This document shows, one piece after another, positions 42,434-58,328 of a stretch of DNA of 64,000 nucleotides. The first letter of the stretch is position 1. Each line of letters starts with the position of its first letter. The notes under the pieces were generated by a model that saw only the letters and a program-made list of their open reading frames with translations, made no database searches and was not told the DNA's origin. Source of the stretch: Spiroplasma phoeniceum (GTDB lineage: Bacteria > Bacillota_I > Bacilli_A > Mycoplasmatales > Mycoplasmataceae); assembly GCA_026239495.1 (NCBI GenBank), contig CP110830.1, positions 124,001-188,000 of the forward strand, read 5' to 3'. The position numbers and the translations under genes are program-made.

Positions 42434-43503
42434 AGACTTCTTGCGATACCTGGTTTTATTATTAAAATATTATTATAAAATATAATTTATGAGGATATTA
42501 AATTATGAAATTTGATGAATTTAAAAATATTAATGATAAAGAATGGTTAAGATTAACAGGAATAAAACAAGATATTTTTAATAAAATGTTAGATATTTTA
42601 CAAGTAGCTGAAATAGAAAAATTTAAAAAAGGTGGCAAAGCTAATAAATTATCACTAGAAAATCGATTATTGATGACTTTATCGTATTGACGAGAATATC
42701 GAACTTATTTTCATCTTGGAAAAAATTTCGGAATTAGTGAAGCTAATTGTTATCGCAATATCAAGTGAATTGAAGATATTTTAATTAAACACCCTGATTT
42801 TCAGCAAGTTGCTGGTAAAAAAGCACTAATAAATGATTATTTTAATGATAAAACTATTATTATTGATGCTACCGAAACCCCAATCCAACGCCCAAAAAAA
42901 GACAAAAACAATCTTATTCTGGTAAAAAGAAAAAACACACTATTAAAACACAAGTAATTATCGAACAAGAAACCAAAAAAATTATTGCAACAAGTTTTTC
43001 ACTTGGTAAAAAACACGATTATGCTTTATTTAAAGAATCAAAAATCGCAATTTTAAAAAATACCAAATTAATAGTTGATAGTGGTTATCAAGGAATACAA
43101 AAAATTCACAATAATGTTATAATGCCCACAAAGAAAACTAAGAAAAAACATTTAAATAAAGAACAAAAACAACATAATAGACTAGTTTCAAAAATAAGAA
43201 TTATTATTGAAAATATTTTTGCTATTCTTAAAAAATTTAAAATTATTACAGAAAAATATCGTAATCGAAGAAAACGATTTAGTTTAAGATTTAATTTAAT
43301 TGCTTCAATTTATAATTTACAATTATTATAGTTATCATAAAAGATTTATTTAAAATTAACAAATTTGAATAATAAAATAATTTTTCGTTGTGGCAAAATA
43401 TTAAATTTTTAAATAAAAGACATAATTAATTAAAATTATAGTTTTATATTAACCCTTTTTTACAAATATTTGAAATTATTTTAATGGGTTATGCAAGAAG
43501 TCT
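42434..43503 (+). mobile_element. IS5-family subfamily A copy, intact
   Basis: A 1,070-bp element with perfect ends. The flanking triplets differ (ATT at 42,431-42,433, AAT at 43,504-43,506), so it has no target duplication. It joins an IS3 remnant to a phage gene, which suggests a recombination junction between two copies. Confidence 0.92.
42505..43331 (+). CDS. IS5-family transposase (frameshift-fused)
   Basis: The 827-nt coding region has the A7 slip site at about 42,894-42,900. It is unusual in encoding Trp13 as TGG where sister copies use TGA. The product would be 275 residues. Confidence 0.85.
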
Positions 43504-44650
43504 AATATATTGTTAAAGCAACCTCACCCGCAACCGATAAAGGAACAATTTTAACTGCTAAAAAAACATCAGAACTATAAGAAAAAGGTAATAATTGACC
43601 TTTTTTAACAGCCTTAGTTTCAAATTTAGATAATATTTTTTTAGTTTTATCAGTAATTTTACTAATTACTTTTTGTTTAATAGTAATTATTTGTTTTTCA
43701 ATTGGGGCTAATAATTTTTTAGTTACTTTTTGAATATAAAAATTTGGGTTTAAATGATTTAAAATTTTATTTAATTTAATTGGTGTTTGATGAAAAATAT
43801 TTAATAATTTATTATTATATATTTTACTGCCCCTCATTAAATTAGCATTTAATAGTAGATTTTTACCAACACCTTTTTTATGAAGATTAGTCATAATGTT
43901 ATATCACTCATTAGTATTAATTTTACTTATTTTATCAATATTTAATCCATATTCAGACAATCATTTATTAGCATTTTTTTCATTCACGCGTGGTATTTTT
44001 TGAACTAATTTAGGACTTATTTTTTGAATATTTTTCTCAATTTTTAATAAATTATTAATTGTTTCTAAATTAGAAAATTTAAAACCTTTATAAAAATCAT
44101 TTCGGGCTAATTTTCCAATTGTATATAATAAAGTTTCATTATTAGCCTGCTTTGTAAAATCAAATATTAATTTAGAATATAAAATCTTTTTACCTGTAAC
44201 TTGCCTTACAACATCTTCTAAATTATTAGCAGTTATTACACCTAATTTTTCAAGTAGTTTAGTTTCTTTTGCTAATTTTAAAATTCTAGTTGTGCGAGCA
44301 GCACGCGTTAATTTACCAATTCCACCAATTGCTGGTAACAAATTTAAGGCAGTACTTTTTGCTGTCACTTCTGATGTTAATTTATCGTATATTTGATTTA
44401 TGGCAAAATCGGTTGCTGTTTCTACACCAAAGGAGATAAAGGCTGCGGCAAAATTAGATAATCCCGCACCAAAACCAACAGCCGAAGCAATCCCACCAGT
44501 TAAAACCGATAAACCAAGGGCTAAAAATTGAATTCCTAAAAATTCTAATAACTGTAAAACAAAACTTTTTTCTTGTTGTTGGATTGACAATCTAGTTGGA
44601 TTTTTTTTAACAGCATAAATAAGGGCTGTTTTAGATGTTCCAATTGGCAT
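43502..44650 (-). CDS. phage structural-type protein, 3' end cut by IS5
   Basis: About 382 residues from ATG 44,650 (MPIGTSKTALIYAVKKNPTR), continuous with TGA-Trp. It has a hydrophobic glycine/alanine-rich region (LALGLSVLTGGIASAVGFGA, about residues 45-80) and then a long basic helical region. The stop TAG at the end comes from the IS5 border, so the natural C-terminus is missing. It follows the capsid-like gene; a membrane-active internal or tail-related protein is plausible. Family not recognised. Confidence 0.55.
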
Positions 44651-44660
44651 ATCTATCAAA

Positions 44661-44685
44661 CGAAAAAGTACTATTTTTTAGTACT
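44661..44685 (-). terminator. hairpin after the capsid-like gene
   Basis: The inverted repeat AGTACTA/TAGTACT is followed on the minus strand by CTTTTTCG, just after the stop of the capsid gene. It could end or attenuate its transcript. Confidence 0.5.
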
Positions 44686-44686
44686 A

Positions 44687-45913
44687 TTAAGAATTTTTAA
44701 TTTTAACATCAATCGGATTTGTTTGACCAGTAGCGTTGTTTTTACCTTCAATTTGAACTTCAACAGTTTTATCATTTGTAATATTAATTGGTCAATCTTC
44801 ACCTTTACTTTCAATAAAGTAATCAAAATCACTTTCAGTTAAAGAACTATTTACTGCTTTTACTGCTTTTAAAACAACAGTTTTAAATTGTGGTTTTAAC
44901 TGTTCTGGTGTTGCTTTTGTTGGGTCTGTAACATGTATAGTTGGTTTATCTATTTTATTAATTTTACTAATATCAATTTTTGTAACAATATGTTTAATAA
45001 TTCCCTTAGGTTCAACTACTGCTCCACCTAAATATAAAACTCTTTCCATAATCAAAGTATTACCCATACCAGTGCCTAATGCAGCAGCACCAACTCTTAA
45101 TTGGGTGTGGTCTTTTTTGCGTAAAATAAGGGGGTCATATTTTTTACTAAATTTAAAGGCAATTGCATTAACACCATCTGGTAATAGAGTAATTGTTCCT
45201 TCTGAACCATCTTTATTGATAATTGGTAATTTTTTAGGAACCATATAGTATGTTGTTCCTTCAACAGTTTTCATTGCTCCACTTGTTGCAATTACACTAT
45301 TTATTTGGTCATTTGCTCCAAGTTGTAACTGTAATTTATTACGAATTCCACGAATAAAATCAGCCGAACCCAATACAACTGTTTCTGATGGAGTAAAGCC
45401 ATTTTCATATATTTTATCCATAATTTCATCATGAATTTGTAAAGCATTTGTATCATCTACTTTTTGTCCTTGAATAGTTGTAACTGTTTCTTTATTAATA
45501 ATTTCTAAAATTTTATTGCGTTTATAGGCAACCTCAGTATCCATTGCTTGCTCAATATCGGCCGCCCAAAGATTAGGATTAAAATCACTTTCTACAGGGT
45601 CTAATTTACGAGCAAAAGTTAAAATTGTATCTAATTCAACAGTTCCATCTTCAAATTTTACTTCAGTGTAGTTTAAAAGACTATCATCGGTATTAAATAC
45701 TTTTCCATCTTTTCCTAAACCCTCATTATATTGAATATTTTTCTTTCTTTTATATGTTAAACCAAATTTATTTGCTTCTTTTCACGCAAATAAAGCTTCT
45801 CAACTAAATTTTTGTTGATAAGTTTGTAAATATCATTGTTCAAATGTTTCTCGATCTCTTTGTGTTGCTTGATTAGCAATATCTCCGAAAATTCTTTGTG
45901 GGTTTTGTGCCAT
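44687..45913 (-). CDS. phage major-capsid-like protein with C-terminal accessory domain
   Basis: A 408-residue protein, continuous with TGA-Trp, starting MAQNPQRIFGDIANQATQRD after a GAAGG ribosome-binding site. The first 310 residues resemble phage coat proteins in organisation (capsid gene directly after a scaffold gene; SETVVLGSADFIRGIRNKLQ, DGVNAIAFKFSKKYDPLI). The last 97 residues (from KIDISKINKIDKPTIHVTDP) form a separate domain also found in the second capsid-like gene at 54,491. That domain's spacing of motifs (DIS, DP.K.T, SDF, ATGQ) recalls the repeat domain of spiralin, the main spiroplasma surface lipoprotein. Capsid identity is inferred from context. Confidence 0.65.
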
Positions 45914-45930
45914 AATTTACTTCCTTCTTT

Positions 45931-46389
45931 CTATTTATTAAATACATTGTCTGTATCTAAAATATTGTTTTCTTTGTTTTCTACTTTTTGTACGCCGCCA
46001 GTGTTAACTGTTTGTACCTTAATTAATTCATCATAAACACTTTGCAATTGTGTTTTAATGATTTCAATATCATCAGTAATATCATAAGACTTTAATAAAA
46101 CATTTTTAAAGTCTTCATTATCAGTTAAAGAATTAATAAAATCAATTACTTCAATTTGTTTTAGTTGAATTGTTTGTTGTTCAATTTGTGAAGTTAATTC
46201 AGTATTTTTTGTTTGTAGTTCGTTGATTTGCTGATTACTATTTTCTAAATTACTTGTATTAAATTCTTCAACTTCAACAGTATTTTCTAAAATAATTTCA
46301 GCAGTTTTAATATCTAAACTACCATCTTCATTTTTAATAGGTTCGTTATTTTCATCTATAAGAACATATTTTACATTTTTTACTGCCAT
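45931..46389 (-). CDS. phage scaffold-like protein
   Basis: A 152-residue acidic protein (MAVKNVKYVLIDENNEPIKN) with a central coiled coil rich in Gln, Glu and Asn (NQQINELQTKNTELTSQIEQ, about residues 50-80). It lies 17 bases upstream of the capsid-like gene. Size, acidity, coiled coil and position match phage scaffolding proteins, which shape the procapsid and are then lost. AGGAGG precedes the ATG. Confidence 0.65.
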   Translation of the reverse strand: MAVKNVKYVLIDENNEPIKNEDGSLDIKTAEIILENTVEVEEFNTSNLENSNQQINELQTKNTELTSQIEQQTIQLKQIEVIDFINSLTDNEDFKNVLLKSYDITDDIEIIKTQLQSVYDELIKVQTVNTGGVQKVENKENNILDTDNVFNK

Positions 46390-46412
46390 CGTTTTTCCTC
46401 CTATTTTTTAAG

Positions 46413-46799
46413 TTATTTATTTGTTCTTTTTCTAATCGCTTTTTGTATAATTTCAAAACTATCTACTCTAAAAGACAAAAAATATCGTTTAGTTTTTATA
46501 TTTAATTGATTAAATACTGAGCCTTTAATTTTTATCTCATCATCTTTTTTTAATTTCAAAAACTCAATTAAAACAGATGGATTATATATTGATAATGTTG
46601 AGTAATTTAATCCTTCTCACTGACATTTAGCCGAACAAGCATCAACTTCAACACCGCCAGCAACCAGTGCCTTAATCTTGGTTTTAATCGGATTTTCATG
46701 TAATCTAACAGTTAATTCTAATTTATTAACTCTTTTATTTTTTGTTTTAGGTTTATTAGTTATTGGTTCTTTGGATAAATTACTTTTTAGTTGTGTCAA
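46413..46799 (-). CDS. phage-associated small protein, possible OB-fold
   Basis: A 128-residue protein starting at TTG 46,799, placed 8 bases after AGGAG; no ATG is available. A basic N-terminus (KPKTKNKRVNKLELTVRLHE) precedes alternating hydrophobic strands ending DEIKIKGSVFNQ and RYFLSFRVDSFEII, which suggests a small beta-barrel. It overlaps the end of the preceding RuvC-like gene by 20 bases. A DNA-binding role is possible but not shown. Confidence 0.5.
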
Positions 46800-47082
46800 T
46801 TTTATCAACTCCTTTTGCTAAAAAATATTGTAAATGTTTTCAAGCATCGTGTTCGTGCTCTGTCATTTTAATATTTCCTTTATAAAAATAATTTTTCTTA
46901 ATAACTGGCGATTGTAAAACATAATTTAAATTAAATAGATATTTACATAAAACTTTTAAACCACCAATAAATTTAGGAGTAGATAATGGATTTTTTATTT
47001 TTAAACCTTTGTGAAGTTGATAATCTTCAATTATTAAAATAACTTTATTTAAATAAGAACAAATTTTATTTTTAAATTCATT
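46780..47082 (-). pseudogene. RuvC-like resolvase C-terminal fragment, cut by IS5
   Basis: About 100 residues remain. The pattern FIGGLKVLCKYLFNLNYVLQ followed by a C-terminal MTEHEHDAWKHLQYFL recalls phage RuvC-type Holliday junction resolvases, whose last catalytic acid sits in a similar H..DA..H motif. The N-terminus with the first acidic residues is missing because the IS5 copy at 47,083 cuts it. Confidence 0.45.
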
Positions 47083-48152
47083 AGACTTCTTGCATAACCC
47101 ATTAAAATAATTTCAAATATTTGTAAAAAGGGGTTAATATAAAATTATAATTTTAATTAATTATGTCTTTTATTTAAAAATTTAATATTTTGTCACAACG
47201 AAAAATTATTTTATTATTCAAATTTGTTAATTTTAAATAAATCTTTTATGATAACTATAATAATTGTAAATTATAAATTGAAGCAATTAAATTAAATCTT
47301 AAACTAAATCGTTTTCTACGATTTCTATATTTTTCTGTAATAATTTTAAATTTTTTAAGAATAGCAAAAATATTTTCAATAATAATTCTTATTTTTGAAA
47401 CTAGTCTATTATGTTGTTTTTGTTCTTTATTTAAATGTTTTTTCTTAGTTTTCTTTGTGGGCATTATAACATTATTGTGAATTTTTTGTATTCCTTGATA
47501 ACCACTATCAACTATTAATTTGGTATTTTTTAAAATTGCGATTTTTGATTCTTTAAATAAAGCATAATCATGTTTTTTTCCAAGCGAAAAACTTGTTGCA
47601 ATAATTTTTTTGGTTTCTTGTTCGATAATTACTTGTGTTTTAATAGTGTGTTTTTTCTTTTTACCAGAATAAGATTGTTTTTGTCTTTTTTTGGGCGTTG
47701 GATTGGGGTTTTGGTAACATCAATAATAATAGTTTTATCATTAAAATAATCATTTATTAGTACTTTTTTACCAGCAACTTGCTGAAAATCAGGGTGTTTA
47801 ATTAAAATATCTTCAATTCACTTGATATTGCGATAACAATTAGCTTCACTAATTCCGAAATTTTTTCCAAGATGAAAATAAGTTCGATATTCTCGTCAAT
47901 ACGATAAAGTCATCAATAATCGATTTTCTAGTGATAATTTATTAGCTTTGCCACCTTTTTTAAATTTTTCTATTTCAGCTACTTGTAAAATATCTAACAT
48001 TTTATTAAAAATATCTTGTTTTATTCCTGTTAATCTTAATCATTCTTTATCATTAATATTTTTAAATTCATCAAATTTCATAATTTAATATCCTCATAAA
48101 TTATATTTTATAATAATATTTTAATAATAAAACCAGGTATCGCAAGAAGTCT
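47083..48152 (-). mobile_element. IS5-family subfamily A copy, intact
   Basis: A 1,070-bp element with perfect ends and ATT duplication at 47,080-47,082 and 48,153-48,155. It entered a pre-existing fusion between phage DNA and an IS3 element. Confidence 0.92.
47255..48081 (-). CDS. IS5-family transposase (frameshift-fused)
   Basis: The 827-nt coding region has an intact A7 slip site. One change stands out: Lys replaces Glu in the DVTETPIQ segment near the first catalytic Asp, which may lower activity. Confidence 0.82.
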
Positions 48153-48649: not shown

Positions 48650-48812
48650 TTAACAACTTTAAAAAGCAATTTTGGTACGGGAATTAGGTGTGAATTCTAG
48701 GCTGTCCCAGCAACTTTAAAGTGTATGAAAGCTAACATCATTCCATTGAGAAAATATTTCTTGAGAAGGAATAGTTAGTAAAGCGAAACTAAGCAAGTAG
48801 ACCGATCTAAAA
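48650..48812 (+). promoter_or_regulatory. cobalamin-type riboswitch
   Basis: The segment contains GGTACGGGAATTAGGTG, GAATTCTAGGCTGTCCCAGC and AACT, closely matching the conserved core of the B12 aptamer. A GAGAAGG element lies near 48,773. A B12-box-like AAGCAAGTAGACCGATC at 48,791-48,807 matches the consensus at about 14 of 17 positions. Next on the same strand is a decayed deoD about 400 bases on, then a nucleoside kinase. B12 use is not expected in mollicutes, so regulation by this element is uncertain. Confidence 0.72.
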
Positions 48813-49218
48813 AGCGCTGGTAAATATCAATTCTGCACTTATAGTTATTACCTATGGGATTATATGATTAATTATTTATTAGTGAAAACTATTAAATAAT
48901 AATTTGAAAGACATCAAAAATCGTTTTTTAGTTGTTAATTTAAAGCATTAATACTATCAAAAAGTATTATTTAAAAGATAATAAATAATAAAATTAATTA
49001 ATAATTAAGCTTAATAGCATTTGATTTAAAATCGTTTTATTTTTGCTATTGTCTTAAACTATTAATTAAAATAATCGTAGAAATTAAACTTCATTTATGT
49101 GGATATTTAACAATATTCTTTTTCATGTTATTTAAATATCCTTACTTTTTAAATAAAAATAGCATTGATATGTATTTATTTGTAATTAAATTAAGCGGAA
49201 AAAGAGAGGATTAAAAAA
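48813..49218 (+). other. gene-free stretch between riboswitch and deoD
   Basis: No open frame of note. An inverted repeat ATTATTTATTAG/CTATTAAATAAT lies at about 48,872-48,903 and could be the riboswitch expression platform, although no T-run follows. A second repeat AATAGCA/TGCTATT lies near 49,013-49,050. The original target gene may have been lost here. Confidence 0.5.
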
Positions 49219-49929
49219 ATGACACCACATATTAATGCCAAAAAATAAGAAATTGCAAAAGTTGTTTTAATGCTGGGAGGCCCATTACGGGCAAAAAACG
49301 TTGCTGAGAAATATTTAACAAATTTAAAATTAGTAAATGAAGTTCGAAATATGTTAATGTATAAGTGAAAATATAAAAACATTGAGGTAACAATTGCCGG
49401 AAGTGGAATGGGTTGTTCAAATATTGGAATTTATTAATAGGAATTATTTAAGTTTTATGATGTTGATTATATTATTATAATTGATTCAGCTGGAAGTTAT
49501 AATCCAAATATAAAGTTTATGATTTCTTTAATGTTCGTGAAGCATTTGGCGAAAGTAATTATGCAAAAATTTCAGCTAATATTGATAGTAATTTAATTGC
49601 TGCAAGTGAAAAATTATTTAATGAAATTGAAACCGCAGCACAAGCAAAAGTAATTAAAAATCACACGGGAATTGTTCATGCAGCAGATGTTTTTTACTGT
49701 TATGATAATTCATTAGACCTTACTTATACTCATAAGTTAGATGTTGTTGAAATGGAATCATATGCTTTGTTTACTAATGCAATTGTTACGCAAAAAACAT
49801 GCAGCAACATTATTAACAATTTCTGACCATCCTGTAACTAAAGAAGTTAATACAGCATTGGAACGCCAAAATAATTTTATGACAATGGTTGAATTAGCGT
49901 TAGATACTGCTATTCAATTAATGGGTTAA
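49219..49929 (+). pseudogene. deoD: purine nucleoside phosphorylase DeoD, degraded
   Basis: DeoD splits purine nucleosides into base and (deoxy)ribose-1-phosphate. The start MTPHINAKK follows GAGAGGA; IAGSGMGCSNIGIY, YDVDYIIIIDSAGSYNP, DVVEMESYALF and LLTISDHPV are recognisable. TAA occurs after codon 9 and near 49,435, and there are frameshifts near 49,515 and 49,790. It lies 19 bases ahead of the intact nucleoside kinase, so the two were probably one purine-salvage operon. Confidence 0.88.
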
Positions 49930-49948: not shown

Positions 49949-50572
49949 ATGAAAATTGCAGTCTTTGGAACCGTTGGGGCAGGAAAAACAAAAGTTAGTG
50001 AAGAATTATGTAAACAATTAAACTATAATTTATTTAAAGAACCATTAGAAGAAAATCCATATTTTAAAGATTTTTACCAAGATATGGAAGGATTTGCATT
50101 TAAAATGCAAATTTATATGTTAACAACAAGAATTGAGCAATTTTTCAACATTGATAATTTAGAGGATACTGTTTTTGACCGCACAATTTTAGAAGACCCT
50201 GTTTTTGTGCGAGTTTCCCACTTATTAAAAATTATGAATGAAATTGATTTTAAAGTTTATAATCGTTTTTTTCAAAATGTTATTGTTCCAATTTTTAAGA
50301 AAAAGTTAGGCTTTGATGTCATTATTTATTTAAAAGTTTCAACTAAAAAAGCGGTTGAACGAATTAAACAACGTGGGCGTCAATTAGAATTAGAAACCCC
50401 ATATTATTACTGGGAAAAGTTAAATGAACAGTATGAATTTTTATATAATGAATTAAAAAATGATTATAAATTTATTGTTATTGATGCTGACAGTGATGAT
50501 TTTTCAAAAAAAATAAGCATTATTATGCAACATTTATTACCTCTTGATAATAAATTTCCTTGTTTAATTTAA
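49949..50572 (+). CDS. deoxynucleoside kinase (dGK/dAK type)
   Basis: The enzyme phosphorylates deoxynucleosides to dNMPs, essential for mollicutes that salvage DNA precursors. It is 207 residues, typical. Present are the P-loop GTVGAGKTKVSEEL (residues 7-20), the substrate segment EPLEENPYFKDFYQDM, the catalytic DR motif in DTVFDRTILEDPVFV, and the lid RIKQRGRQLE. The start ATG follows AAAGGAGCG. It is undamaged, while deoD just upstream is broken. Preference for dG or dA cannot be read from the sequence. Confidence 0.92.
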   Translation: MKIAVFGTVGAGKTKVSEELCKQLNYNLFKEPLEENPYFKDFYQDMEGFAFKMQIYMLTTRIEQFFNIDNLEDTVFDRTILEDPVFVRVSHLLKIMNEIDFKVYNRFFQNVIVPIFKKKLGFDVIIYLKVSTKKAVERIKQRGRQLELETPYYYWEKLNEQYEFLYNELKNDYKFIVIDADSDDFSKKISIIMQHLLPLDNKFPCLI

Positions 50573-50618: not shown

Positions 50619-50699
50619 ATGAAAAGCACAAATAATAATATAGAAACAAAAAGTTTAAGTAATTTAAGAATTTTAGGAATAGGTCCTATTATTTATAAT
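50619..50699 (+). pseudogene. start of an unknown gene, cut by IS5
   Basis: Twenty-seven codons (MKSTNNNIETKSLSNLRILG, then IGPIIYN) follow an AAGGATG ribosome-binding site and run into the IS5 copy. Across the insertion the frame would soon enter antisense phage sequence, so the host gene had already been truncated at a prophage border. Confidence 0.5.
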
Positions 50700-51769
50700 A
50701 GACTTCTTGCATAACCCATTAAAATAATTTCAAATATTTGTAAAAAGGGGTTAATATAAAATTATAATTTTAATTAATTATGTCTTTTATTTAAAAATTT
50801 AATATTTTGCCACAACGAAAAATTATTTTATTATTCAAATTCGTTAATTTTAAATAAATCTTTTATGATAACTATAATAATTGTAAATTATAAATTGAAG
50901 CAATTAAATTAAATCTTAAACTAAATCGTTTTCTACGATTTCTATATTTTTCTGTAATAATTTTAAATTTTTTAAGAATAGCAAAAATATTTTCAATAAT
51001 AATTCTTATTTTTGAAACTAGTCTATTATGTTGTTTTTGTTCTTTATTTAAATGTTTTTTCTTAGTTTTCTTTGTGGGCATTATAACATTATTGTGAATT
51101 TTTTGTATTCCTTGATAACCACTATCAACTATTAATTTGGTATTTTTTAAAATTGCGATTTTTGATTCTTTAAATAAAGCATAATCGTGTTTTTTGCCAA
51201 GTGAAAAACTTGTTGCAATAATTTTTTTGGTTTCTTGTTCGATAATTACTTGTGTTTTAATAGTGTGTTTTTTCTTTTTACCAGAATAAGATTGTTTTTG
51301 TCTTTTTTTGGGCGTTGGATTGGGGTCTCGGTAACATCAATAATAATAGTTTTATCATTAAAATAATCATTTATTAGTGCTTTTTTACCAGCAACTTGCT
51401 GAAAATCAGGGTGTTTAATTAAAATATCTTCAATTCACTTGATATTGCGATAACAATTAGCTTCACTAATTCCGAAATTTTTTCCAAGATGAAAATAAGT
51501 TCGATATTCTCGTCAATACGATAAAGTCATCAATAATCGATTTTCTAGTGATAATTTATTAGCTTTGCCACCTTTTTTAAATTTTTCTATTTCAGCTACT
51601 TGTAAAATATCTAACATTTTATTAAAAATATCTTGTTTTATTCCTGTTAATCTTAATCATTCTTTATCATTAATATTTTTAAATTCATCAAATTTCATAA
51701 TTTAATATCCTCATAAATTATATTTTATAATAATATTTTAATAATAAAACCAGGTATCGCAAGAAGTCT
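50700..51769 (-). mobile_element. IS5-family subfamily A copy, intact
   Basis: A 1,070-bp element with perfect ends and AAT duplication at 50,697-50,699 and 51,770-51,772. It sits at the border between the nucleoside-kinase region and a prophage block. Confidence 0.92.
50872..51698 (-). CDS. IS5-family transposase (frameshift-fused)
   Basis: The 827-nt coding region has the A7 slip site and DVTETPIQ. Both frames are open and no damaging change was seen. Confidence 0.85.
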
Positions 51770-51775
51770 AATGTC

Positions 51776-52240
51776 TTAAATGGTCTTTTTTCATTTTGAT
51801 TTATCAATTCAAATAATGATTAAAGAAATTATTAAAGTAATTAAAGGTAATATTGTAAATACTAATCCCATTTTAGATATTTTTAATCTTGGTATATCAA
51901 TTTTCATATCAACTTTTGGTTTACCAGCAGCAACAAATATACCTTAAATTCCGTGTGTAAATAAAGGTGTTAGTAAAATAGCAACTCCATTATCTCAATA
52001 TTGACCACAATTATATCAATTAATATTATCTTTTATTGCATTAATCATACCATATTCTAATCAACAATTTAATGCTAAAAATATCAATGTATAAAAAATA
52101 ATCACTCAACTACAAATTTTATATTTTATTTCTCATTCTCTAATATCTTTATGAGTTCAATTATAATTTGGAATAGGGTCTTTTTTAAATCAATTTCAAG
52201 GCAAGGCATCCTTTAATCAAGTTGTTTTATCTTGTTTCAT
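51776..52240 (-). pseudogene. holin-like phage membrane protein with one nonsense codon
   Basis: About 154 codons starting MKQDKTTWLKDALPWNWFKK after an AAGGAG ribosome-binding site. Three to four membrane helices (SWVIIFYTLIFLALNC, VAILLTPLF, MGLVFTILPLITLITSLIII in approximate reading) and a basic tail WIDKSKWKKTI. A TAA near 51,943 interrupts the middle. It is the last gene of the phage block, after the fibre-like gene, where holins are often found. Confidence 0.5.
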
Positions 52241-52256
52241 TAATTTAATCTCCTTC

Positions 52257-53558
52257 CTAACTTACTTTTTTTCTTTCAATAAACATAAATTCCAAAGTTC
52301 TAAATTTTGCTGGACCATTAACTCCAATATTAATCACAATCCATCAGGATTAATAGATAATGCTAAACATGCACTATTAACAACTATTTGATCATATATA
52401 ACACCTATTGTTTGTATAAAAATATGCCTTGTTTGCAACATCCCTTGACTTTTTAAATATCCTTTGCTATATTCTCTTGATGCTCAAATTCTATAAATAT
52501 AATTTTCTTTATCAAAATTAGGAATATTATATCCAGTTTGACCAACTATAAAATCACTAGTATCAACAATTTCTCAATCATTACCAGCATTAATAGATAT
52601 ATCGCCACTGCCTAATAATGAACTACTATTAATAGTTTTAATATTTGTTCCACTTATTAATTTATCTTGTTTAGTATTAATTATTCTGTTCATATTTTCT
52701 ATTGCAAAATTAAATCCAGATATAGATAAATCTAATTTTTTTGATGTTTTTACAATATATTTGCCATTTTCTTTATCAATATAATCTTTATTCAAATCAC
52801 TATCTTTAATAACATCTGATGGAATTTCACCACCTTGTTTTGCTTTTCAAACATTATTATCAAAATAAATAGTATCATTATCAAATGGAACAATCATTTT
52901 AATATATTCTTTATAATAAATTTTACTAAAATCATTAACAGTTGGATAAGTAATATTTATTGAATTATCTGTTTATAATCGTTATTTTAATCAAAATAAT
53001 AATGTTGGATAAAAAGTTTTTTTACTAATATGCTTATATTCTTATTCTCAAAGATTAGCATAATTATCTAAACTATAATTATATGGTCTATCAACGGTTT
53101 TACTAGATATAATATCAATTATTTCACCTGCTAATTTTAAAGCATTTTTAACATCACGAGTAATATTTTGATTTGCTTCAGAGTCATTAGTTTGAGAATA
53201 AGCAACTCCACCCTGGTAAAAATGAAGCACTACCAGTTAAATCATTAACTCCTTTGGGTAAATATCAATTTATAACCGCTAATAAACAGGCAGATTGAAT
53301 ATAACTTAATCATTTATCATATTGAATTAAACCAGTATTATCTTTTTTTACTCAGTGAAATAAATATTTTTTATTTATTTTATCTAAAATTGTCCCACCT
53401 GATAATCTATCCATTCATAAAATAGTTTTTAAAATAGCATTATAAATTAAATTATCATTATAAGAAGATTGTTTTCTATCATTAATGGGTTGTCAAAGTT
53501 TACTTTCTTTCACATCTTCAACTTTTATAAATAACAAATTACTTAAATTATTTTCCAT
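52257..53558 (-). pseudogene. phage tail-fibre or baseplate-like protein, broken
   Basis: A gene of about 430 codons starting MENNLSNLLFIKVEDVKESK after GAGGTG. Its middle carries the motif ISGTNIKTINSSSLLGSGDI, common in tail fibres and adsorption proteins of Gram-positive phages. The frame is lost near 53,225, at TAA codons near 52,970, and near 52,335, after which the natural end GVNGPAKFRTLEFMFIERKK is readable in another frame. Host binding is the likely role. Confidence 0.65.
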
Positions 53559-54485
53559 ATAAAACACCTCTTAATTGATTGCGATATTTATTTTTTAAAT
53601 TACTCGGCTTATAACTATTAATTTTTCTTTGTACTTTTTTAATTTTTTTAATAGTTTGATTATTTTTGTAAAACATATTTTTAACTGGTGTTTTATATAA
53701 ATCCTTAATATTTTTAACATCACTTCGGCGTTCACGATACCATTTTTATTATTAATTTCACCAGCAAAATTAAAATTAAAATGTCCAATTTTTAAATTAT
53801 TAATAAACTTTTTAATTTGATTTAATTTTTGAACTGTTGGTAATGTTAATTTAGTAGTTCTTTTGGTGTGTTTTTCTTTTAATGCTTGCGGTAATCGTTT
53901 TTTAATATAATTTCTTAAATGACTAGGTAATAATTTTCTTAATCAATAACGTCAAAATAAAGTTCCTACATTAGATACAGCATTACTTAATAATTTTCAA
54001 ATTTCAACTGGAACACCAGGATAAACATATGGACCATAAAATTTCGGATGTTTTGCTGTTTTTTTATATATTAAAATAGTTAAATTACCTGTTAAAGTTA
54101 ACTTATTAGTTATATTAAACACACCACCATCAAGTCAACTACTATTTAAAGGTTGTCAATTAGTATTTAAATAATTTTCATTTTTAAATTGTTCTCTATT
54201 TTTAATATTATTATCTTTTTCTAATTGAATTAATATTTGTTGTATTTCTTTTTTATGACATTTTTTAATTAAATCTAAATAAGTAAATGGATTTAATTAA
54301 TGGTAAATATCTTCAACTTTATTTGTAATTTTATTATATTTATCAGTAATATAATTAATTGGCTTTAATACTTTATTGTGAACTTGATTAACTCTATTAA
54401 TTAAATTTACAAATTTACTTATTAAGGGTTTATTTTCTAAACTAGATACTAATAAAGTTAAAACTCGTAAAATTAGTAAGTTCAT
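53548..54485 (-). pseudogene. phage structural-type protein, broken
   Basis: The frame starts MNLLILRVLTLLVSSLENKP and is interrupted by TAA at 54,297. It continues (LNPFTYLDLIKKCHKKEIQQ, FYGPYVYPGVPVEIWKLLSN) to a frameshift near 53,745, then ends in a basic tail ending NQLRGVLYGK. The stop overlaps the start of the fibre-like gene by 11 bases. It takes the same place after a capsid-like gene as the protein at 43,502-44,650, but the two are not clearly alike. Family not recognised. Confidence 0.55.
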
Positions 54486-55754: not shown

Positions 55755-56827
55755 AGACTTCTTGCATAACCTAATCTAATTATTTTAAAATTCCTATAAA
55801 ATATTTTAAAATTAAAATAGAAATTATAGGAGATTAAAATTATGAAATTTGATAAATTTAATTTTATTAATGATAAAGAATTATTGCGATTAACCGGAGC
55901 GAAAAAAGTTACTTTTAATAAAATGTTAAATATTTTACAAGTAGCTGAAATAGAAAAATTTAAAAAAGGTGGCAAAACTAATAAATTATCACCAGAAAAT
56001 CGGCTACTGACGATTTTATCGTATTGACGAGAATATCGGACCTATTTTCATCTTGCTAAAAGTTTTGATATTAGTGAATCTAGTTGTTATCGCAATATCA
56101 AGTGAATTGAAGATATTTTAATTAAACACTCTGATTTTCAACAAATCGCTGGTAAAAAATCACTAATAAATGATTATTTTAATGATAAAACTATTATTAT
56201 TGATGTTACCGAAACCCCAATCCAACGCCCAAAAAAAGACAAAAACAATCTTATTCTGGTAAAAAGAAAAAACACACCATTAAAACACAAGTAATTATCG
56301 AACAAGAAACCAAAAAAATTATTGCAACAAGTTTTTCGCTTGAAAAAAAATGATTATGCTTTATTTAAAGAATCAAAAATCTCAATTTTAAAAAATACCA
56401 AATTAATAGTTGATATTGGTTATCAAGGAATTCAAAAAATTCACAATAATGTTCTAATATCTACAAAAAAACAAAGAAAAACCCTTTAAATAAAGCACAA
56501 AAACAACGTAATAGAATATTTTCAAAAATGAGAATTATTATTGAAAATATTTTTGCTATTCTTAAAAAATTTAAAATTATTACAGAAAAATATCGTAATC
56601 GAAGAAAACGATTTAGTTTAAGATTTAATTTAATTGCTTCAATTTATAATTTGCAGTTAGTATAGAAGATTTATTTAAAATTAAAGAATTTAAATAATAA
56701 ATTCATTTTTTGTTGTGGCAAAATATTAAATTTTTAAATAAAAAACATAATTAATTAAAATTATATTTTTCTATTAGTGTCTTTTTACAAATATTTGCAA
56801 TTTTTTAATAGGTTACGCAAGAAGTAT
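55755..56827 (+). mobile_element. IS5-family subfamily B copy, decayed
   Basis: A full-length copy with a mutated right end (GCAAGAAGTAT). The transposase has a 2-base loss near 56,344 and further changes near 56,460. The left flank is a phage capsid gene and the right flank a transketolase gene, with no shared triplet, so it marks a recombination junction. Confidence 0.85.
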
Positions 56828-56830
56828 AAT

Positions 56831-58328
56831 AAGACTGGCCACCCAGGGATTGTATCAACTTCAACACCACTGATGCAAGCAATTTATTTAAATAATTTAA
56901 TTGCTAATCCGGCAGCACATGATTGAATTAATCGTGATCGTTTTGTATTATCTCCGGTACATGCTTCAACTTTACAATATGCGATTTTACATTTAGCTGG
57001 TTATAATTTAACTAATTGATGATTTAAAAAATTATTGTCATATTAATTAAAAAATGCCAGATCATCCAGAATATGGTGTTACTCCTGGAGCGGATAATTC
57101 TTCTGGTCCCCTAGGGCAAGCAGTTGGCTATGGAGTTGGAATGGCATTAGTTGAACAACATTTGGCAGATAAATTTAATAAACCAGTTTATAAAATCATT
57201 GACCATTATACTTATTTTTTATGTAGCGATGATGATTTGCAAGAATACGGAGCAATTGAAGCAATCCAATTAGTTGGGGTATTAAAATTAAATAAATTAA
57301 TTATGTTATATGATTCAAATAATTGCCAATTAGATACAAAATGTGATGCTGTTTTAAAAATTGATTATCAACGTTTTTTTGAAGCACAAAATTGAAATTA
57401 TATTCGGATTGAAAAAGCAGATGAGGATCTACCAGCAATTCAAAAATCAATTGCAAAAGTGCAAAAATCTGATAAACCAAAATTAATTGAATGTAAAACA
57501 ATTGTTGGTTATTGGCATCCAAAACAAGGCCCACCTATGCATTCTTCACCATTTACTCACGACGAAACGGAACAAGTAAAAGCATTTTATGGTTTTAATC
57601 ATCCTCAATTTTTTGTTGATAATGATGTTAAAAAACATTGACAATATACTTTTGCTAAACTAGGAGCAACAAAATATGAAGAATGAAATAAAAAAATAAC
57701 TGCTTACAAAGCAACATTCCCAAAGGAATATGAAGAATTATTTGTAATTCCATCGGTTGATTTAAAATTTTTTGAAGCTTTATTAACAACTGATAAAGAT
57801 AAAAAAGTAGGAAACCCACGAATTATTATGGGTGATGTGTTTAAATATTATCAAAAAAAGTGTTTAAATAATATGTTTGGAGGTAGTGCTGATTTGGGAA
57901 CTGCAACCAAAATTATTGGTTATAATGGTTCATGAACAACATCAAAACCACAAAATAATAATGTTCATTTTTGAGTGCGTGAATTTGCCGCCGAAACAAT
58001 TAGCATTGGTGTTGAATTAAACCAAGGTTTGAAAGGATTTAATTCAACATTTTTAATTTTTGCTGACTATATGTAACCATGTATTTGAATGGCTTGTATT
58101 CAAAACTTACCCGTAATTTTTGCTTTTTCACATGATTCAATAGGTGTTGGTTTTGATGGAAAATCACATCACCCAGTTGAACAATTAGCAATGCTACGAA
58201 ATTTTCCGAATTTAAATTTGTTTCGTCCAGAGGATATTAAAGAAACAATTGGTTGTTTGAAAGCAAGCTTATAAGCAAAAAGTGCTCCATCAGCTTTAAT
58301 CTTATCGCGAGAAGATGCAGTCGTATAA
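56831..58328 (+). pseudogene. tkt: transketolase, truncated at both ends
   Basis: Transketolase moves two-carbon units in the pentose phosphate pathway using thiamine diphosphate. The fragment starts at KTGHPGIVSTSTPLMQAIYL (about residue 25 of the family) and keeps MPDHPEYGVTPGADNSSGPL, GQAVGYGVGMALVEQ, FGGSADLGTATKI and FSHDSIGVGFDGKSHHPVEQ. It stops at REDAVV, so the last 170 or so residues are missing. A frameshift near 57,045 and TAA near 58,075, 58,272 and 58,326 also break it. The diphosphate-binding GDG is altered to CSD (FLCSDDDLQEYG), so it was unlikely to be active even before truncation. Confidence 0.88.

Follow-up and report, generated by a model that had tools for sequence, protein, structure and literature searches.

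Why should a cobalamin riboswitch stand in front of broken nucleoside salvage genes in a mollicute? An earlier note, made from the letters of a 64-kb stretch of Spiroplasma DNA (here called the window), placed such an element at positions 48650 to 48812, ahead of a dead deoD and an intact deoxynucleoside kinase (dNK) gene, and proposed that it might be a relic of a B12-dependent reductase or transporter, the sensor of another ligand, or a new kind of salvage regulator. Comparison with related genomes leads us to an answer that we hold with good confidence, namely, that the element would be an orphaned, decaying AdoCbl riboswitch, ancestrally a transcriptional OFF switch on the salvage operon, whose ligand side has been lost.

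A cobalamin riboswitch ahead of a decayed salvage operon

When the window was searched with cmscan (Rfam 15), a match to the Cobalamin family, RF00174, was found at 48656 to 48824 on the plus strand (66.3 bits, E 3.7e-14). The match runs over the complete model (positions 1 to 189) and lies well above the curated gathering cut-off for the family, 31.5 bits; thus, the identification made in the earlier note was borne out, and its coordinates were correct to within about 12 bases. tRNAs aside, RF00174 was the sole Rfam family above its curated cut-off across the window, and the genome (2,179,570 bases in a single contig) holds this one copy. Judged by its sequence, the element is an authentic AdoCbl-type cobalamin riboswitch with an aptamer from the known family.

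The genes behind it are largely ruined, and all of them lie on the plus strand. deoD (purine nucleoside phosphorylase), which is intact in relatives (TIGR00107), is a pseudogene at 49219 to 49926: its tblastn match to an intact relative (55% over all 236 residues) can be followed only across stops and frame breaks, and no open stretch is longer than about 60 aa. Transketolase has been cut by a 6.1-kb insertion, and tblastn recovers its first 28 codons at 50619 to 50702 and a remainder at 56825 to 58316 in which the frame is broken and the C terminus is missing. Of these three genes, only dNK survives intact, as a 207-aa open reading frame at 49949 to 50572, so the dead deoD and the intact kinase of the earlier note both hold. 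The kinase is 94% identical to the protein of genome G012, and PF01712 is matched in a relative; among named genomes, it is 96% identical in S. phoeniceum P40 and 84% identical in S. poulsonii MSRO_BK, and the window is placed on the citri-phoeniceum side of the genus. It belongs to a clade-specific second group of paralogues that is only 38 to 41% identical to the other dNK, the latter being present in all 14 genus genomes.

On the minus strand, an insertion-sequence transposase in two parts occurs on both sides of the riboswitch-dNK segment, in two copies that are nearly identical (47629 to 48081 and 51246 to 51698; 47255 to 47464 and 50872 to 51081), and phage-like minus-strand genes lie on either side of the salvage operon (43502 to 46808 and 51944 to 54122), the second block sitting inside the 6.1-kb transketolase insertion.

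Riboswitch-led operons in the genus and the order

Cobalamin riboswitches were present in 13 of the 14 genus genomes, in one to four copies each, and in 42 of the 298 genomes of the order. The genus riboswitches were oriented, and the downstream genes were translated with code 4 and assigned to families, which gave six classes of target. Class (a) is the operon deoD-dNK-transketolase-KDPG-type aldolase-nucleoside deoxyribosyltransferase, found in nine genomes of the citri-phoeniceum-poulsonii clade, including that of the window. Class (b) comprises a small membrane protein and an ECF S-component, usually adjoining a class II ribonucleotide reductase (RNR). The targets of classes (c) and (d) are the class Ib nrdFIE and the class III nrdDG genes, and classes (e) and (f) are lipoprotein and membrane-protein operons to which no function was assigned. 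Searching Spiroplasma for the same element upstream of deoD or of ECF transporter genes, as had been suggested, thus recovered both. Outside the genus, the switch most often precedes nrdF(I)E or S-component/lipoprotein/ABC operons, a number of which contain a BtuR adenosyltransferase. Four genomes that carry the class II reductase NrdJ (G005, G008, G009, and G010) have no riboswitch-led nrdFIE or nrdDG; in these, the switch precedes the salvage operon instead.

An alignment of nine leaders, together with an identical operon order, makes the window leader orthologous to the deoD-dNK leaders of NrdJ-bearing genomes. Since eight relatives have this leader at the head of this salvage operon, the word "relic" used in the earlier note fits the best-supported option, but the accompanying idea that a B12-dependent gene was lost from this very spot does not.

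Among the relatives, the parts expected of such a switch can be recognized. Changes in the C-rich loop L5 are matched by changes in loop L13 farther downstream (UCCCAG with CUGGGA/G, CCCCAG with CUGGGG, UCCUAG with CUAGGU, and UACCAG with CUGGUC), and when L5 was permuted among 64 sequences, L5-L13 complementarity was lower in 500 of 500 trials. Terminator hairpins followed by U runs precede the target genes; between G001 and G013, the terminator stems differ by linked changes (AAAGGGCC/GGUCCUUU and AAAGAACC/GGUUCUUU). In characterized switches, the kissing loop formed by C-rich L5 and L13 favors the terminator when a corrinoid is bound (PMC10653944, PMC2258182). Transcriptional OFF members of RF00174, such as that of Priestia megaterium metE (PMC10653944), have the same aptamer, C-rich L5, L13 on P13, and downstream terminator.

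A lipoprotein of about 330 aa stands behind cobalamin riboswitches across Mollicutes, often with ABC-2-like and small membrane proteins (loci L042 in G010, L044 in G009, L053 in G013, and L059 in G001; L122 to L125 outside the genus); it matched nothing in Pfam or NCBIfam and is a candidate component of B12 capture or uptake. In G009 (L032, 3988 to 5500), with equivalents in G008 and G010, a riboswitch leads an operon in which a secreted protein (about 155 aa), resembling a CbrS-like product, is accompanied by a lipoprotein and an odd ABC protein; neither the secreted protein nor the lipoprotein had a family match.

A B12 economy built around class II ribonucleotide reductase

What in these bacteria might use B12? 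The 844-aa neighbor of the S-component is the B12-dependent ribonucleotide reductase NrdJ, matching NF005991 with 1313 bits (cut-off, 854) and TIGR02504 with 565 bits (cut-off, 400). The monomeric RTPR type of class II RNR (TIGR02505) gave only weak partial matches and was rejected. The importer beside NrdJ received no family name from Pfam or NCBIfam. A profile of 15 S-components matched 6FNP (ECF-CbrT) with an E value of 1.4e-15, and in a Foldseek search with a model of the importer (mean pLDDT, 88), the best-ranked folds were those of S-components, none of them below an E value of 0.2; we therefore call it CbrT type on the sequence profile match, which is decisive. The adenosyltransferase is of the BtuR type (PF02572); the PduO type (PF01923) was sought and rejected, as none was found in the genus. 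NrdJ, importer, and adenosyltransferase are all present in G001, G003, G005, G006, G009, G010, and G013. Searches of the genus for the B12-binding domain PF02310 and for TIGR00276 (QueG) found neither, which makes NrdJ the only apparent user of B12.

A survey published in 2009 reported that 88.2% of 17 Mollicutes examined use neither nickel nor cobalt/B12 (PMC2667541). The view of the earlier note that mollicutes are not known for cobalamin use does not stand up in this order, where the class II RNR model was matched in 39 and BtuR in 44 of the 298 genomes, the majority of which also have a cobalamin riboswitch. Riboswitch and NrdJ occur together in 31 genomes (Fisher 1.6e-25) and riboswitch and BtuR in 36 (Fisher 2e-32), in tests that count related genomes as independent; NrdJ and BtuR occur together in 37. 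Sequence evidence supports the aptamer, the kissing loop, the terminators, membership in the regulon, and the co-occurrence of the riboswitch with NrdJ and BtuR.

This arrangement recalls Lactobacillus delbrueckii, in which cbrT lies within an nrdJ-cbrS-cbrT-pduO cluster and CbrT is a vitamin B12 ECF transporter (PMC5997447). As in that cluster, the Spiroplasma relatives have NrdJ beside a CbrT-type importer and a small partner gene; unlike the PduO of L. delbrueckii, their adenosyltransferase is of the BtuR type and is encoded elsewhere.

Loss of the B12 side in the window genome

In the window genome, this set is broken. A profile search found no PF02867-matching large subunit and no NrdJ there; neither the window nor, as far as tested, the genome holds anything that needs B12 (no NrdJ, no B12-binding domain, no TIGR00276/QueG), in agreement with the earlier note. 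The former importer locus, L120, retains an intact hydrolase neighbor, a broken small membrane gene, and an S-component that is cut after about 48 residues, and the CbrT remnant contains 7 TAA. A blastn alignment of G005 with L120 covers G005 positions 1 to 402 and resumes at 656, the junction falling at one base in L120, which indicates that about 254 nt were deleted and that these were exactly the riboswitch and platform of the importer. A remnant riboswitch at L120 was considered and rejected, since cmscan found none and blastn showed a clean deletion. The broken importer locus is close to an RNase P RNA gene (L120 14401 to 14769; RF00011, 265 bits). BtuR is truncated in the window genome (profile positions 1 to 99 of 172); elsewhere, it is split into two separated pieces in G007 and is absent from G002 and G004.

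Searches with PF02867 (classes I and II) found no RNR large subunit in G002, G004, G007, G011, G012, or the window genome, which suggests that genomes of this kind depend on deoxynucleoside salvage.

Probable decay of the window switch

The aptamer core and B12 box are recognizable, as the earlier note had said, yet they carry private changes at conserved positions. The B12 box (48791 to 48804) has a C-to-A change at 48795 that sets it apart from all eight orthologous leaders, and P1 has a private 4-base deletion. Loop L5 (UCCCAG, 48705 to 48710), recognized by its position, by its complementarity to CUGGG in most relatives, and by the linked changes, is intact. Its downstream partner, for which a check had been proposed, exists but is altered: L13 at 48853 to 48859 reads UAUGGGA, as opposed to CUCUGGGG or CCCUGGGG in the aligned relatives. 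Five of the six L5-L13 pairs are possible, and the P13 hairpin that presents L13 (48840 to 48873, plus strand) has a weakened stem, with a fold energy of -1.7 kcal/mol compared with -3.6 and -5.5 kcal/mol in relatives. The intrinsic terminator survives as a remnant at 48903 to 48931 on the plus strand, where the fold of -3.9 kcal/mol (z -0.8) is barely better than that of shuffled sequences; relatives reach -8.6 kcal/mol (z -2.9), so over half of the predicted stability is gone. The lesions thus span P1, L13, P13, and the terminator, and by these and by its target, a salvage operon, the window copy differs from switches of the P. megaterium metE type.

Some of the changes look tolerable. The private changes at 48716 and 48795 together would turn G-C into U-A within the short helix that lies between CUG and the B12 box; this combination is unique to the window among 67 aptamers and may have arisen by chance, given nine private aptamer substitutions. 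Since these two positions could still pair, the window aptamer may still fold. Of the others, one turns G-C into G-U, and two resemble the bases of other riboswitch classes of the genus.

Leader, deoD, and dNK were aligned from nine genomes, and private substitutions were counted. In the NrdJ-bearing G008, G009, and G010 taken together, aptamer and platform show 1 private change in 789 sites, compared with 68 in 2189 for spacer and deoD (p 1.8e-8). In the window genome, the corresponding counts are 16 in 268 and 47 in 950 (p 0.53), which implies that drift is equally rapid in the switch and in the dead deoD; dNK has 6 private substitutions in 555 sites. By this measure, the leader is strongly constrained in NrdJ-bearing relatives and under no detectable selection in the window genome. 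The leaders of G002, G004, and G012 have about 2 private changes each, too few for a rate to be judged. Five NrdJ-less genomes all retain the deoD leader, which argues that decay is recent or partial.

Could the window element nevertheless still work as an AdoCbl switch, with cobamides entering by another route and controlling dNK? Its score, close to the 66.8 bits of G012, the intact L5 with its five possible pairs, and the double change that keeps a pair speak for such a switch, but cbrT and btuR are broken, neither NrdJ nor another tested B12 enzyme is present, the terminator is degraded, and substitutions have accumulated at the same rate as in the dead deoD; we regard this as rather unlikely. 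Far less credible is a drift of the aptamer toward a new ligand, e.g., a nucleoside or nucleotide, that would now control the salvage genes of a cell lacking a reductase. The position before salvage genes and the private changes in the conserved core are compatible with it, but selection on the leader was not detected, deoD and transketolase are dead, and the terminator is decayed, so the suggestion of another ligand found no support.

The origin of the leader bears on a third possibility. The nearest relative of the deoD leader is the one that precedes cbrS-cbrT in G003 and G006 (76 to 77%, compared with 60% or less for other classes), and the salvage operon may have acquired a riboswitch that once served a transporter. 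On this resemblance, the operon could also have simply landed behind a former cbrS-cbrT leader and never have been controlled by it. No useful synteny between the two leaders was found that would support such a swap, and in NrdJ-bearing genomes of the citri clade, leader and platform stay almost unchanged while deoD diverges, which argues that the leader is selected in its present place; we consider a leftover that never exerted control very improbable.

Proposed mechanism and relation to known systems

We therefore return to an orphaned OFF switch, for which we infer the ligand, the direction of control, and the physiology from the patterns described above. In the ancestor, B12 would be imported via CbrT and adenosylated by BtuR, and with AdoCbl, NrdJ would supply dNTPs. 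The L5-L13 kissing loop would then form, and the terminator would halt transcription of deoD, the second dNK, transketolase, aldolase, and nucleoside deoxyribosyltransferase; when AdoCbl was absent, the operon would be expressed. AdoCbl would thus repress salvage and, across the regulon, likely shuts off B12-independent dNTP routes. The window lineage lost NrdJ, importer, and adenosyltransferase, which should leave the switch without ligand and permanently ON; dNK was probably left permanently on and stayed intact, while the switch drifted without detectable selection.

A precedent is Streptomyces coelicolor, in which, according to the account of Borovok 2006 given in PMC4991794, an AdoCbl riboswitch controls the class Ia nrdABS genes and the primary reductase is NrdJ, of class II. 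As in that account, AdoCbl would govern a B12-independent dNTP route in an NrdJ-carrying organism; unlike the class Ia RNR target described there, the Spiroplasma target is deoxynucleoside salvage, with class Ib/III RNR in sister species. In the open-licence literature, we found no paper joining Spiroplasma with a cobalamin riboswitch and none joining such a riboswitch with a deoxynucleoside kinase; against that literature, deoxynucleoside salvage as the target and a mollicute B12 regulon undergoing loss as the setting are new. We think it reasonably likely that, in the NrdJ-bearing clade, the B12 riboswitch governs salvage itself and not only alternative reductases, as a back-up for NrdJ with a dedicated second dNK, and that the window holds the fossil of that switch, left behind when the entire B12 economy disappeared from a cell in which no class I/II RNR was detected.

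On this reading, part of the Mollicutes has a complete B12 economy that is centered on a single enzyme, class II RNR, and governed by a compact riboswitch regulon, and the rule that a B12 riboswitch represses a B12-independent RNR would extend to deoxynucleoside salvage. Among the citri-group species, the enzyme, the importer, the adenosyltransferase, and the riboswitches have been lost in steps, and this natural series allows one to study the speed at which a riboswitch decays after loss of its ligand.

As a separate observation, NrdJ-less genomes carry a second cobalamin riboswitch, of 70 to 90 bits, before a broken lipoprotein gene (G002:C1:1482816, G007:C1:1699381, and G004:C1:109726), a switch outliving its target.
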